From: an uncultured Bacteroidales bacterium
GTDB lineage: Bacteria > Bacteroidota > Bacteroidia > Bacteroidales > Bacteroidaceae
DNA: 64,000 bases
NCBI GenBank assembly: GCA_902763865.1
Contig: CACWTR010000003.1
Coordinates: forward strand, 28,510-92,509
Reading direction: 5' to 3'
The notes beneath the pieces are model-generated. The model was not told where the DNA came from. It saw nothing but the letters and a program-made list of their open reading frames with translations, and did no database searches. How positions within the stretch are numbered: position 1 is the stretch's first letter; each line of letters opens with the position of its first letter. Made by a program: the position numbers and the translations under genes. This document shows positions 3,648 to 55,360 of this stretch, piece after piece.

Positions 3648-5378
3648 TCAGGCATTCTGCTCGATGGGCTTTATGTCCTCAATCTGCAGCTGCACCTCCC
3701 CGCGCTTGTGGGTGTTTTCCTCGATGTGATAGACGATGTCGAAGGCACGCTTCGTCTTGATGTAGCGGGCCTGCGAGCTTTGTCCGAAGGCGATGCCGTT
3801 CATGACGTTGCTGCTCTTCGAGTCCACGAGCTCCAGCTTGATGTGCTCCTGGTCGCGCCCCACGACCTTGCTGGTGCCGTAGTCATAGACCTGCCGTGTG
3901 CGGAAGAGGGGCTTCGAGTTGTCGGGTCCGTAGGGGGCGAAGCGCTTGATGTCGGCAGCCATGCGGCGGTTGATGTCGCGGAAGTCGATGTCGGCATCGA
4001 TGTGGAGTATGGCGTTGACCTGCTCGGGCTGTATGTGCTCCTTGACGTACTGCTCGAAGCGGTGGCGGAAGGCCGGTATGTTCTGTGCCGGCAGGCTCAG
4101 GCCGGCGGCGTAGGTGTGACCGCCGAAGTTCTCGAGCAGGTCTGCACAGCTCTCGATGGCCTTATAGACGTCGAACCCTGGCACGCTGCGGGCCGAACCG
4201 GTAGCCATGCCGTCGTCGTTGCAGGTGAGAACCACGCTGGGCTTGTAGAAGACCTCCGTCAGGCGCGAGGCCACAATGCCGATGATGCCGCGGTGCCACT
4301 CTTCGTTGAAGAGGACGATGGACTTGTGCTCGTGGCGGTGCTCCAGTGTCATGACGATGCGGTTGGCTTCCTCCGTCATGGACTTGTCCAGGTCCTTGCG
4401 CTGCTCGTTGTACTCGTTGATTTGCTCGGCCAGCTTCATGGCCTTCTGCTGGTCCCTTTCGATGAGGAGTGCTACGGCCTCGCCGCCTGTCTGCATACGT
4501 CCGGATGCGTTGATGCGCGGCCCTATCTTGAAGATGATGTCCCCCAGGGAAATCTCCCTGCTCCCGAGTCCGCACACCTCCATGAGCGCCTTGACGCCGG
4601 TGCTGGGTCCGCTGTTGAGCTGGCGCAGGCCGTGGTAGGCCAGGATGCGGTTCTCGCCCATGATGGGCACGATGTCGGCAGCGATGCTGATGGCACAGAG
4701 GTCGAGCAGGGGGATGAGTTGCGAGAACTCGATGCCGTTGTTCAGGGCAAAAGCCTGAATCAGCTTGAAGCCTACGCCGCAGCCGCAGAGGTGCTCGTAG
4801 GGATAGGTGTTGTCGAAGCGCTTGGCATTGAGCACAGCCACAGCCGGCGGCAACTCCGCGCCCGGCACGTGATGATCGCAGATGATGAAGTCGATGCCCT
4901 TCTCCTTGGCGTAGGCAATCTCATCGGTAGCCTTGATGCCACAGTCGAGCACGATGACAAGGCCTACGCCCGTCTCGCAGGCATAATCGACACCCTTGCG
5001 CGAGACGCCGTAGCCGTCGTCGTTGCGGTCGGGAATGTAATAGTCTATGTTGCTGGAGAACTGCTGCAGGAAGCGATACACGAGTGCCACTGCCGTGCAA
5101 CCATCCACATCGTAGTCGCCATAGACGAGGATGCGCTCCTTGCGTCCGAGGGCTTCGTTGAGGCGGTTCACGGCCTTCTGCATGTCCTGAAAGAGGAACG
5201 GGTCGTGCAGGTCGGTGAGCTGAGGACGGAAGAACTTACGCGCATCCTGCACGTTGTCTATGCCACGACCTATCAGCACACGGGCCAGCACAGGGCTGAT
5301 CTTCAGCTCTGCTGCCATCTTACCCGCAAGCTCCAGTTCTGCTTCAGAAGGCGGAATATAGCTCCACTCGTAGTTCAC
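3648..5378 (-). CDS. recJ: Single-stranded-DNA-specific exonuclease RecJ
   Basis: 576-residue DHH-family 5'-3' exonuclease acting on single-stranded DNA in the RecF pathway and mismatch repair. The first DHH motif GDYDVDG is at residues 87-93, the DHH triad in ICDHHVPG at 168-170, INASGRM at about 289-295, and the DHHA1 motif GGHTYAAG at 419-426; an OB-fold region follows to the C-terminus. Length is typical of the family. It reads in the same direction as recQ, its functional partner, 216 bp downstream of it, with the 22-bp array in between. No TAnnTTTG box is obvious just upstream of the start; the 5' flank is an AT-rich AATT-type repeat. Confidence 0.97.
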   Translation of the reverse strand: MNYEWSYIPPSEAELELAGKMAAELKISPVLARVLIGRGIDNVQDARKFFRPQLTDLHDPFLFQDMQKAVNRLNEALGRKERILVYGDYDVDGCTAVALVYRFLQQFSSNIDYYIPDRNDDGYGVSRKGVDYACETGVGLVIVLDCGIKATDEIAYAKEKGIDFIICDHHVPGAELPPAVAVLNAKRFDNTYPYEHLCGCGVGFKLIQAFALNNGIEFSQLIPLLDLCAISIAADIVPIMGENRILAYHGLRQLNSGPSTGVKALMEVCGLGSREISLGDIIFKIGPRINASGRMQTGGEAVALLIERDQQKAMKLAEQINEYNEQRKDLDKSMTEEANRIVMTLEHRHEHKSIVLFNEEWHRGIIGIVASRLTEVFYKPSVVLTCNDDGMATGSARSVPGFDVYKAIESCADLLENFGGHTYAAGLSLPAQNIPAFRHRFEQYVKEHIQPEQVNAILHIDADIDFRDINRRMAADIKRFAPYGPDNSKPLFRTRQVYDYGTSKVVGRDQEHIKLELVDSKSSNVMNGIAFGQSSQARYIKTKRAFDIVYHIEENTHKRGEVQLQIEDIKPIEQNA

Positions 5379-11929: not shown

Positions 11930-11993
11930 ACTTATATATATTAATAATGTATAGGGAAAGAAGTGGGTACAAATGCGTGAGGAACCCGTGACG

Positions 11994-12048
11994 GTCCTCG
12001 TTTTAGCATTTTTTTCTGTGGTTGCAAGCAGCCCAAATCTATCCACAT
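11994..12048 (-). ncRNA. SAM-II-like riboswitch in the metK leader
   Basis: Read on the minus strand the leader shows, in order: UGUGG (12047-12043), AGAUUUG, a short variable loop, CUUGCAA, CCACA pairing back to UGUGG (12021-12017), an A-rich linker, and UGCUAAAA (12008-12001). The order GUGG-GAUUU-UUGCA-CCAC-A-rich-GCUAAA is the conserved skeleton of SAM-II (metA motif) riboswitches, whose pseudoknot binds SAM. The metK gene product makes SAM, which fits. The second pseudoknot helix is not obvious by eye. Just downstream, a hairpin with GAGGA/TCCTC arms (about 11978-11999) could be the expression platform. Confidence 0.72.
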
Positions 12049-12065
12049 GTATTGTTTTGCGGCTG

Positions 12066-13677: not shown

Positions 13678-13751
13678 GACGCGATGCAAAAGTTATTTTC
13701 ATGACGTGAAAATATATTTTCAAACTTTGAAAATAACTTTTATGCCGCGTC
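13678..13751. repeat. 21-bp palindrome array, copy 1 (A-B) with inverted ends
   Basis: Unit A TTTTCATGACGTGAAAA at 13696-13712 and unit B TTTTCAAACTTTGAAAA at 13717-13733, 21 bp apart. Flanks are inverted copies: AAAAGTTATTTTCA (13688-13701) against TGAAAATAACTTTT (13728-13741), extended outward by CGACGCG/CGCGTCG. Other copies at 36767-36883 (four units) and 55225-55360 (five units). Confidence 0.95.
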
Positions 13752-36458: not shown

Positions 36459-36715
36459 ATGATTATCCTGGGTCTTACCACCATTCATTAGTTTCGGAAC
36501 AGCCCTAAAAGGGCAGTAAGCTCATAGCCCAGGGCATCGCCCTGGGTGGTCTATGTGACATGTGGCACGCCCTGAAAGGGCAAAAGACTTTCCTGCATTA
36601 TTCTTTTGCCCCTTCAGGGCGAAGGATGATATACGCTATGCCCCAGGGCGATGCCCTGGGCTATGAGCTTACTGCCCCCCTTCAGGGCGGTGGTGGTACG
36701 ACCTGGGATAATCAT
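36459..36715. repeat. 257-bp inverted-repeat element (MITE-like)
   Basis: Bounded by perfect 10-bp ends ATGATTATCC (36459-36468) and GGATAATCAT (36706-36715). Inside, the two halves mirror each other: GGGCAGTAAGCTCATAGCCC followed by AGGGCATCGCCCTGGG on the left reappears inverted on the right, and AGCCCTAAAAGGGC, GCCCTGAAAGGGC and CCCCTTCAGGGC are small hairpins within. A second copy begins at 63879 and runs off the window. Confidence 0.92.
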
Positions 36716-36766
36716 TAAAATAGCCACGGATTGAACGTCATCCGTGCAGGGGCAGAAACTTCAGGC

Positions 36767-36883
36767 AACGCGTTGCAAAAGTTATTTTCATGACGTGAAA
36801 ATTAATTTTCAAACTTTGAAAATCTATTTTCATGACGTGAAAATTGATTTTCACGTCATGAAAATAAGTTTTAGAACGTGTCG
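36767..36883. repeat. 21-bp palindrome array, copy 2 (A-B-A-A')
   Basis: Units start at 36785 (A), 36806 (B), 36827 (A) and 36848 (A', the reverse complement of A). Ends are AAAAGTTATTTTCA (36777-36790) and its near-inverse TGAAAATAAGTTTT (36859-36872). Confidence 0.95.
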
Positions 36884-36971
36884 TGAAGACTTTTCCGTGG
36901 TGACGCAACGGATTTTAGGAGCTGGAGAAAAGGATTTGGATGCTTTTTGAGGGAAGAAAAACTGTTCGTGC

Positions 36972-37001
36972 TTTGTCTTTCAGAAAAAAAGCGTAACTTT
37001 A
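36972..37001 (+). promoter_or_regulatory. Promoter (TTTG-N18-TAACTTTA) of the GH16 gene
   Basis: TTTG at 36972-36975 and TAACTTTA at 36994-37001, one base off the -7 consensus; ATG 42 bases further on. Confidence 0.55.
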
Positions 37002-37042
37002 CACGCAGAAAGATTCATCGACATGCAAAAACATTTATCGCT

Positions 37043-37882
37043 ATGAAGACAACCGTGATTTTCGGGCCTCGATGCCTTTGGCTGACTGCGCTGCTGCTGG
37101 CAGTCCTGTTCTCCTCTCCCTGCTCGCTTCCGGCCAAAGGAAAGAAAAAGCTCCCTCCCCGGCGCGAGGGGTGGGAGCTGGTATGGCACGACGAGTTCGA
37201 TGGCCGACGGCTTTCCGACGAGTGGACGCGCATCCCGCGATTCCCCAACCCTTCGGAGTGGAACAAATTCATGAGCAGCGACGACAGGCTCTATCGGGTG
37301 AAAGGTGGTGTGCTGACGCTCTACGGACGGGTCAACGACTTCCTGCCGGAGGACACCGCCCACTTCCTGACGGGCGGCGTCTATACGCGCGGCAAGGTGA
37401 CGTTCCGGCGCGGCAGGATAGACATCCGTCTGCGCATGGACGATGCCTCCGGAGCGTGGCCGGCTGCATGGCTCCTGCCGGAAGGACGCTGGCCGCACGA
37501 CGGCGAGATAGACATCATGGAGCGCCTGAACGCCGACGACTTTGCGCACCAGACGATTCACTCAGCCGTCACCGAGTACGACCTTGAAGCCCGCAAGACT
37601 CAGGACTGGCACCATACGGCCCCCATCCGCAAGGGCGACTGGAACGTCTATAGCGTGGAGCTCTACGAGGACAGCGTCAGCTTCCTCATCAACGACAGCC
37701 TCACGTTCACCTACCGCAAGGAGCCGCAGCACGGTCCGAGGCAGTTCCCCTACGACCGCCCCATGTACTTGCTGCTCGACATGCAGCTCGGGGGCGACTG
37801 GGTGGGCCGCATCGACCCCAACCAACTGCCCTACCGCTACCAGATAGACTACGTCCGCTTCTACAAAAAAAAGGGTGAATAA
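37043..37882 (+). CDS. Glycoside hydrolase family 16 protein
   Basis: 279 residues from MKTTVIFG. A signal peptide (LWLTALLLAVLFSSPCSLPA) exports it. The catalytic motif is EIDIME in HDGEIDIMERL (nucleophile and acid/base glutamates, ExDxxE form of GH16), with WELVWHDEFDG at the domain start and YQIDYVRFY at its end. GH16 enzymes cleave beta-1,3/1,4-glucans, agarose, carrageenan and similar; target not deducible. No carbohydrate-binding module or SusC/D pair is nearby, unlike a polysaccharide-utilisation locus. An in-frame ATG at 36947 lies before the promoter. Confidence 0.92.
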   Translation: MKTTVIFGPRCLWLTALLLAVLFSSPCSLPAKGKKKLPPRREGWELVWHDEFDGRRLSDEWTRIPRFPNPSEWNKFMSSDDRLYRVKGGVLTLYGRVNDFLPEDTAHFLTGGVYTRGKVTFRRGRIDIRLRMDDASGAWPAAWLLPEGRWPHDGEIDIMERLNADDFAHQTIHSAVTEYDLEARKTQDWHHTAPIRKGDWNVYSVELYEDSVSFLINDSLTFTYRKEPQHGPRQFPYDRPMYLLLDMQLGGDWVGRIDPNQLPYRYQIDYVRFYKKKGE

Positions 37883-55224: not shown

Positions 55225-55360
55225 GCAACGCGTCATAAAAGTTATTTTCATGACGCGAAAATATATTTTCAAACTTTGAAAATATATTTTCAAACTTTGA
55301 AAATTAATTTTCATGACGTGAAAATTGATTTTCACGTCATGAAAATAACTTTTCCACGTG
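55225..55360. repeat. 21-bp palindrome array, copy 3 (A-B-B-A-A')
   Basis: Units start at 55245 (A, with GACGCG variant), 55266 (B), 55287 (B), 55308 (A) and 55329 (A'). Ends AAAAGTTATTTTCA (55237-55250) and TGAAAATAACTTTT (55340-55353) are perfect inverted repeats. Lies 70 bp after fbp. Confidence 0.95.

Follow-up and report, generated by a model that had tools for sequence, protein, structure and literature searches.

Three places in one stretch of 64,000 nucleotides, the whole of which was analysed and is called the window here, carry a short palindromic unit, TTTTCA-N5-TGAAAA, repeated at regular steps. What are these arrays, how are they distributed along the chromosome, and what might act on them? 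An earlier note, made from the window alone, had described exact 21-bp arrays of two palindromes, A and B, enclosed by common inverted ends, and had proposed a family of protein-binding sites in which units are gained or lost inside a fixed frame.

Three dyad arrays in the window

The arrays themselves were borne out. We found 11 units at the places described, in three arrays of 2, 4 and 5 units with every step 21 bp, where 0.12 matches at ≤1 mismatch were expected and none of 100 dinucleotide shuffles reached 11. Ten of these units are exact; the first unit of the five-unit array, at 55245, carries a single mismatch in an arm. Of the six ends, five read exactly AAAAGTTATTTTCA, and the remaining one, on the right of the 36.8-kb array (36859-36872), reads AAAACTTATTTTCA. 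These ends do not bound the arrays, however, because a phased 22-bp pattern runs on about 75 bp outward on both sides. The features, none with an assigned strand, are as follows; the outer extent of both phased arms at 36.8 kb comes from the family profile rather than from this copy alone.

13696-13733: two-unit array (A, B), the short member, from the unit search
13688-13741: inverted ends AAAAGTTA...TAACTTTT enclosing the two-unit array, from the end pattern
36710-36784: left phased arm of the 36.8-kb array, about 75 bp, with A-tracts in 22-bp steps, from sequence and family profile
36785-36864: four-dyad core of the 36.8-kb array (units A, B, A, A'), from the unit search
36865-36939: right phased arm of the 36.8-kb array, the left arm mirrored, from sequence and family profile
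55245-55345: five-unit array (A*, B, B, A, A'), from the unit search and array comparison
55237-55353: inverted ends enclosing the five-unit array, from the end pattern

The 36.8-kb core contains 2 promoter-like matches against 0.7 expected in the scanned stretch. In one frame the array DNA reads KIDFHVMKI, a string for which we found no published mention in the open-licence literature. That reading is the whole basis of the earlier note's suggestion that spurious database proteins may come from the arrays. A second, unrelated repeat adjoins the 36.8-kb array at 36480-36710 and consists of inverted GCCCTGAAAGGGC-type modules that look REP-like by eye. The window's sole Rfam match at gathering score is a SAM-II riboswitch at 11993-12052 on the minus strand (56.8 bits).

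A genome-wide set with a preferred unit number

The genome-wide search that the earlier note had called for revealed a family larger than first seen, with 80 arrays in the draft genome G000 (2.91 Mb on 75 contigs). This genome contains 286 exact TTTTCA-N5-TGAAAA units and no match to the reversed control pattern. To find the arrays we used end patterns together with the unit list, and each locus was then fetched with its flanks; because the fetched loci account for all 286 exact units (287 units with one mismatched), no exact unit was missed. With two entries 20 bp apart treated as one array, 64 of the 80 arrays have four units, 1 has five, 2 have three, 7 have two (one of them with a 20-bp step) and 6 have one. 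At least two of the short arrays are cut by contig ends (C3:16 and C12:190113), and several adjoin unrelated sequence. Since four units predominate, the window holds one typical and two atypical arrays.

The unit arms differ at 1 base per 3444 among G000 units collected at ≤1 mismatch, and a search of the first 60 arrays at ≤3 mismatches gave no convincing extra units. By contrast with the arms, which are nearly invariant, the five-base centres are tolerant of change and take ten forms (mainly CGTCA, AACTT and AAGCT, 136, 45 and 32 times, both strands pooled), which makes types A and B only two out of a broader range of centres; the 64 four-unit arrays show 55 distinct orders of units and spacers. 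The claim that the arrays do not fit CRISPR holds, as the spacers are only four bases long, read T-NN-A in 204 of 206 cases in G000, and mostly separate four units. In three arrays (L092, L099 and L131), sequence resembling an insertion sequence end interrupts the repeat where a spacer reads TAA or TTAA. Separately, the ends of contigs C8 and C12 (L127 and L128) carry an identical array start and flank, perhaps a single place or a recent duplication.

Arrays form the centre of a helically phased element

Alignment of flanks shows that each array sits at the core of an element of about 230 bp, in which degenerate 22-bp repeats with A-tracts pointing outward lie on both sides of the array. Across 119 flanks of the first 60 G000 arrays, conserved A-tracts are centred near −6, −28, −50 and, less strongly, −72, and the stretches that separate them are partly conserved; in G080, a second species of the genus, the A-tracts follow the same steps and are strong out to −72 (60 flanks of 30 arrays). 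Neither flank set (119 in G000, 60 in G080) revealed a sharp outer boundary or a terminal repeat; conservation instead fades by 22-bp steps.

Over 230 bp, the spectrum of A-tracts peaks at 10.4-10.5 bp in both genomes, and periodicity at 10.5 bp exceeds that of base-shuffled sequence 12.5-fold in G000 (64 arrays) and 8.7-fold in G080 (30 arrays). This coherence across the whole element indicates that the phased arms and the core share one helical phase, as the earlier note had proposed for the units. Predicted intrinsic curvature is inconsistent between the two, with G000 elements above shuffled sequence and G080 elements below it. The element is a helically phased array and, judged from its sequence, probably a protein-binding site.

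The longer element also changes how unit number is to be read. Two other arrays have a four-unit pattern from which the five-unit array differs by a doubled B unit and one mismatch. In a UBA3734 record, 99.2% identical to the L134 locus of G000 across 4107 bp, at least three and a half units can be read up to where a run of N begins, against two in L134; the simplest account of this alignment would be that L134 lost 42 bp in register, or it may reflect a short-read assembly error. In-register gain and loss, as the earlier note had supposed, is therefore supported, but free variation within fixed ends is not supported as the rule, because four units dominate and the ends form only the inner edge of a pattern that runs farther out.

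Arrays are evenly spaced along the chromosome

The arrays are over-dispersed in both genomes, being spread chromosome-wide with non-random spacing. In G000, 41 gaps between arrays on the same contig range from 8753 bp to 49 kb with a coefficient of variation (CV) of 0.50; random placement gave a mean CV of 0.87 and an average of 13.5 gaps below 8.7 kb, and none of 20,000 placements matched the observed minimum or CV. The 23 gaps in G080 have a minimum of 11,874 bp and a CV of 0.40 against 0.89 at random, with about 1 in 10,000 random sets matching the minimum and none of 20,000 matching the CV. Both genomes are drafts and gaps were measured within contigs; the null placed the same number of points on the same contigs 20,000 times, anywhere rather than in intergenic DNA only. 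The G080 places come from 150 scored of 642 candidates, so weak arrays may be missed, and leave out six weak rows at three places (C6, C29:5197 and C55:113358; E ≥1e-4), of which C29:5197 would give a 9.8-kb gap. The even spacing favours a putative nucleoid role for the arrays; nothing observed speaks for the silencer role that the earlier note had also raised.

Arrays border transcription units

Nearly all G000 arrays are intergenic by the calls of a simple gene finder trained on long frames; two overlap a predicted gene end, and an earlier pass over 60 arrays placed one inside a predicted frame (L045). A gene lies on both sides of 75 of the 80 arrays, and these pairs are tandem in 37 cases, convergent in 23 and divergent in 15, compared with 211 tandem, 24 convergent and 29 divergent background pairs in the 60-array loci, which indicates that arrays prefer transcription-unit borders. 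The median distance from array to gene 3' end is 83 bp and to gene start 202 bp; distances below 80 bp make up 40 of 83 to gene ends and 5 of 67 to gene starts, and in 30 of the 37 tandem pairs the array is closer to the 3' end of the upstream gene.

This context bears on whether the arrays are operators of a global transcription factor acting on adjoining genes. The units do have the form of palindromic dimer sites, and one array (L047) lies 244 bp upstream of an Lrp/AsnC gene. Yet 23 of 75 arrays sit between convergent genes, tandem arrays mostly lie toward the upstream gene's end, and a regulon would not predict even spacing. The Lrp gene, promising in G000 as a conserved neighbour, was rejected in that role: G000 alone has the array, and of the 15 relatives in which both neighbouring genes are retained, none has a recognisable one, in a comparison for which our array model R1 (below) listed no arrays at all in G082, G083 and G093, and in which the Lrp matches of G065 and G138 are only 50% identical and array letters more diverged. 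We regard the operator reading as unlikely. At this one site, the filled and empty forms were aligned and inspected by eye for target duplications, and the inserted stretch proved to carry further sequence besides the array. L047 also has an extra inverted-repeat segment near 3780-3970 (GGGAAGTTAAGGGACAATAG and its reverse) that is missing in six aligned relatives.

Hairpin pairing is not maintained

As RNA, the 36.8-kb array folds strongly (−52.3 kcal/mol, z −9.9), and arrays are frequently close to gene 3' ends, both of which would suit transcribed hairpins serving as bidirectional terminators or processing signals. Oriented G000 arrays, however, are less self-complementary than sets in which units are permuted between arrays, a permutation that ignores subfamilies (61.75 against 63.67; 0 of 300 as low), and every one of 20 permuted sets folds more stably than they do. 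Self-complementarity in G080 is likewise below that of permuted arrays (p = 0.013), with folding energy not clearly different.

Changes in the arms are asymmetric as well. None of 78 variant G080 units is symmetric, against 8.6 expected by shuffling arms, and matching variants on the two arms of a junction do not occur either, against 6.4 expected, with related arrays taken as independent in this shuffle; the 35 variant units in 18 arrays from other genomes include one that is symmetric. G000 half-sites show unequal CG/TG pairing 136 times against 57 expected, and symmetric units fall below chance (67 against 86, p = 0.01), with AA/AA above it (45 against 26). There is no Rfam match at the 36.8-kb array. 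A terminator scan of 36600-37100 gave 2 sites against 0.7 expected, one of them in the left arm (36725-36746, minus strand) and none within the core. Intrinsic terminators have a GC-rich stem and a T-run and lie at gene 3' ends, whereas 15 of 75 arrays sit between divergent genes and the core has no such site. Gene context, asymmetric arm changes and the permutation tests together led us to reject the hairpin reading, which we consider highly improbable.

For the family as a whole, then, nothing favours an RNA or cruciform role. Together with the phasing and the near-invariant unit arms, this upholds the array family as a probable protein-binding site.

Letters differ while the architecture is retained

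Exact unit pairs were absent from all 36 other genus genomes of a first sample. Three units with ≤3 mismatches occur in 13 of 139 genus genomes (134 matches in G000, 116 in G080). Scoring 23 candidates per genome, R1, which models sequence only, matches 35 of the 139 at E 1e-3, 22 of them with a best E ≤2e-15; because R1 was built from 32 sequences, including arrays of at least G000, G080, G088, G137, G140, G150 and G151, these seven genomes match by construction, and at least 7 of the 22 strong genomes had supplied model sequences. In the other 104 genomes R1 detected no array, with the same 23 candidates scored and strict filters. A de novo scan likewise found none in 200 kb of G135 or 100 kb of G141, two of those genomes; it recovered all 7 four-unit arrays in 10 loci of G000 and found 1 in 84 kb of G065. 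Because arrays go undetected in most genus genomes, their function would be dispensable or replaced there.

Across the genome collection, 23 named stretches contain exact unit pairs: 15 Bacteroidales MAGs, mostly with ruminant gut labels, UBA3734, six from Thomasclavelia, Erysipelotrichaceae or Clostridiales, and one from Anaerolineales. Of 393 Bacteroidales genomes, 6 were hit by a loose tandem pattern, G000 among them, and 5 by its reversed control, so that there was no enrichment beyond G000 in that sample. R1 at E 1e-6 also matched 6 of the 393 including G000, the others weakly (8 candidates scored per genome). No viral contig with arrays was found.

Several sites in other lineages have features of their own. 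In Thomasclavelia/Erysipelotrichaceae (L024, L025, L035, L038 and L039), two 17-bp dyads 21 bp apart lie downstream of a conserved stretch and, by their sequence, are perhaps an operator; L027 also has both dyads and starts too close to show the conserved stretch. The Anaerolineales MAG has five TTTTCACGGCGTGA-type dyads in 21-bp steps (L036:3698-3798). In other Bacteroidales families, L144, L145, L146 and L148 show single GGAAAA/TTTTCC or TGAAAATGGATTTTC arrays in 21- or 22-bp steps by eye.

Within the genus, 59 of the 62 places found in G080 cover most of the four-unit model. G080 arrays have arms reading TTTTCA (156), TTATCA (60) or TTTCCA (24) and centres that also differ from those of G000. 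Where arrays of the two genomes near shared genes are aligned, the architecture is alike and the letters differ, and genomes besides G080 also have the four-dyad architecture in other letters. For 6 of 30 examined G080 arrays, a neighbour's orthologue lies ≤600 bp from a G000 array; mostly one flank is shown, and the L186/L074 array is shifted by one gene. For L116 of G088 and L066, orthology holds on either side of the array. Sharing of positions between G000 and G080 was not significant within the fetched loci (Fisher test, p = 0.26).

The main rival to a binding role is an interspersed, non-autonomous repeat akin to REP/BIME or BrickBuilt; it would spread alone or with a helper and be spaced by target immunity or by recombinational loss between close copies. 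Its scatter would fit, with about 80 copies in G000 and none detected in most sisters, as would the L047 site, which holds an array in G000 and lacks one in all 15 relatives compared; gain or loss of units resembles that of BrickBuilt, as far as the available excerpt describes it (PMC4596501). Against a repeat, the element has no sharp boundary or terminal repeat, its unit arms are near-invariant yet inner flank bases vary, unlike recent copies, and some positions are common to species despite different letters. We take this explanation seriously and still think it doubtful.

Comparison with known systems

No known family matches every feature of the four-dyad element, and none of the titles listed from the open-licence literature on Bacteroidetes/Prevotella or rumen repeats, REP/RAYT, phased A-tracts or nucleoid proteins describes it. 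The sites of the matS, SlmA and Noc systems are palindromic, number in the tens chromosome-wide and serve an architectural protein, each site being single and short; the arrays differ as four-dyad elements of about 230 bp with phased arms and a minimum spacing.

The nearest described element is the BrickBuilt MITE of Porphyromonas gingivalis, which, according to the excerpt available (PMC4596501), is likewise found in Bacteroidales, is intergenic, and has tandem repeats of about two turns inside conserved ends, with a unit number that differs between strains. The same excerpt gives BrickBuilt 23-nt repeats without spacer, 19 copies in ATCC 33277, a longer leader and tail, and IS-like terminal inverted repeats (PMC4596501). 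The arrays share the intergenic tandem repeat inside conserved ends but have dyad units, mostly four, with symmetric phased arms and even spacing, and no IS-like terminal inverted repeats at a sharp boundary appeared in the 119 G000 and 60 G080 flanks.

REP/BIME elements, too, are numerous short intergenic palindromes, REPs measuring 20-40 bp with a tag at one end (PMC3733652). Unlike them, the arrays are tandem dyads in 21-bp steps in which hairpins are disfavoured, the paired changes that would keep a hairpin palindrome being absent in G080 and nearly so elsewhere (0/78 and 1/35, as above). We rejected a RAYT link, as neither of the two PF01797 matches in G000, at C4:17.7 kb and on C18 (weak), adjoins an array; the listed C4 array is at 49.1 kb and none is listed on C18. 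The misfit with REP/BIME asserted in the earlier note stands for neighbouring RAYT genes and paired changes; a REP-like origin in the wider sense keeps the doubtful standing given to the repeat above.

A putative docking site for an oligomeric protein

The four dyads on one face, the phased arms, the near-constancy of the unit arms beside their tolerant centres and the even spacing together point toward occupation or wrapping of the element by an oligomeric protein. A review describes Lrp dimers as reading imperfect inverted repeats of 13-17 bp, set two or three turns of the helix apart, and Lrp oligomers, as octamers, as wrapping DNA (PMC2995911); for RemA, also an octamer, DNA wrapping has been proposed (PMC8481266). 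The dyads have the length and helical spacing of Lrp/AsnC-type sites, and by these descriptions Lrp/AsnC geometry fits best for a candidate binder, with no particular gene implicated. Lrp/AsnC sites differ in having been described, in that excerpt, for promoter control rather than as a regular genome-wide set (PMC2995911). Nearly every genus genome (138 of 139) has PF01037 genes and a minority has arrays, so presence of an Lrp gene does not track the arrays.

We tentatively propose, at somewhat less than an even chance and from sequence features, that each element is a putative docking site for an oligomeric DNA-binding protein whose complexes would serve as spaced architectural points. Dimers would fill the four 17-bp near-palindromes and form a tetramer of dimers, around which the phased arms may wrap or bend. 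Such complexes would act chromosome-wide, in topological insulation, compaction or anchoring, rather than in control of single promoters. One protein reading all copies would make unit and arm letters drift jointly in each species, and array positions would turn over slowly. Against the docking reading, predicted curvature is inconsistent between G000 and G080, the positions that the two share are few, and even spacing is also explicable by target immunity.

A broader possibility, which we think more likely wrong than right, is a so far unrecognised chromosome-organising system in one Bacteroidales genus. Its nucleosome-like wrapping site of about 230 bp, with four phased dyads and symmetric arms, would recur each 20-35 kb or so, at least about 9 kb apart; letters would drift in concert per species while architecture and spacing last. 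If the family is selfish instead, a minimum spacing of about 9 kb would be out of the ordinary and call for some mechanism resembling immunity. To our knowledge, little is known of chromosome folding in Bacteroidales, and a site set with a preferred count of four dyads would be a direct handle on it, through the binder and the domain borders.
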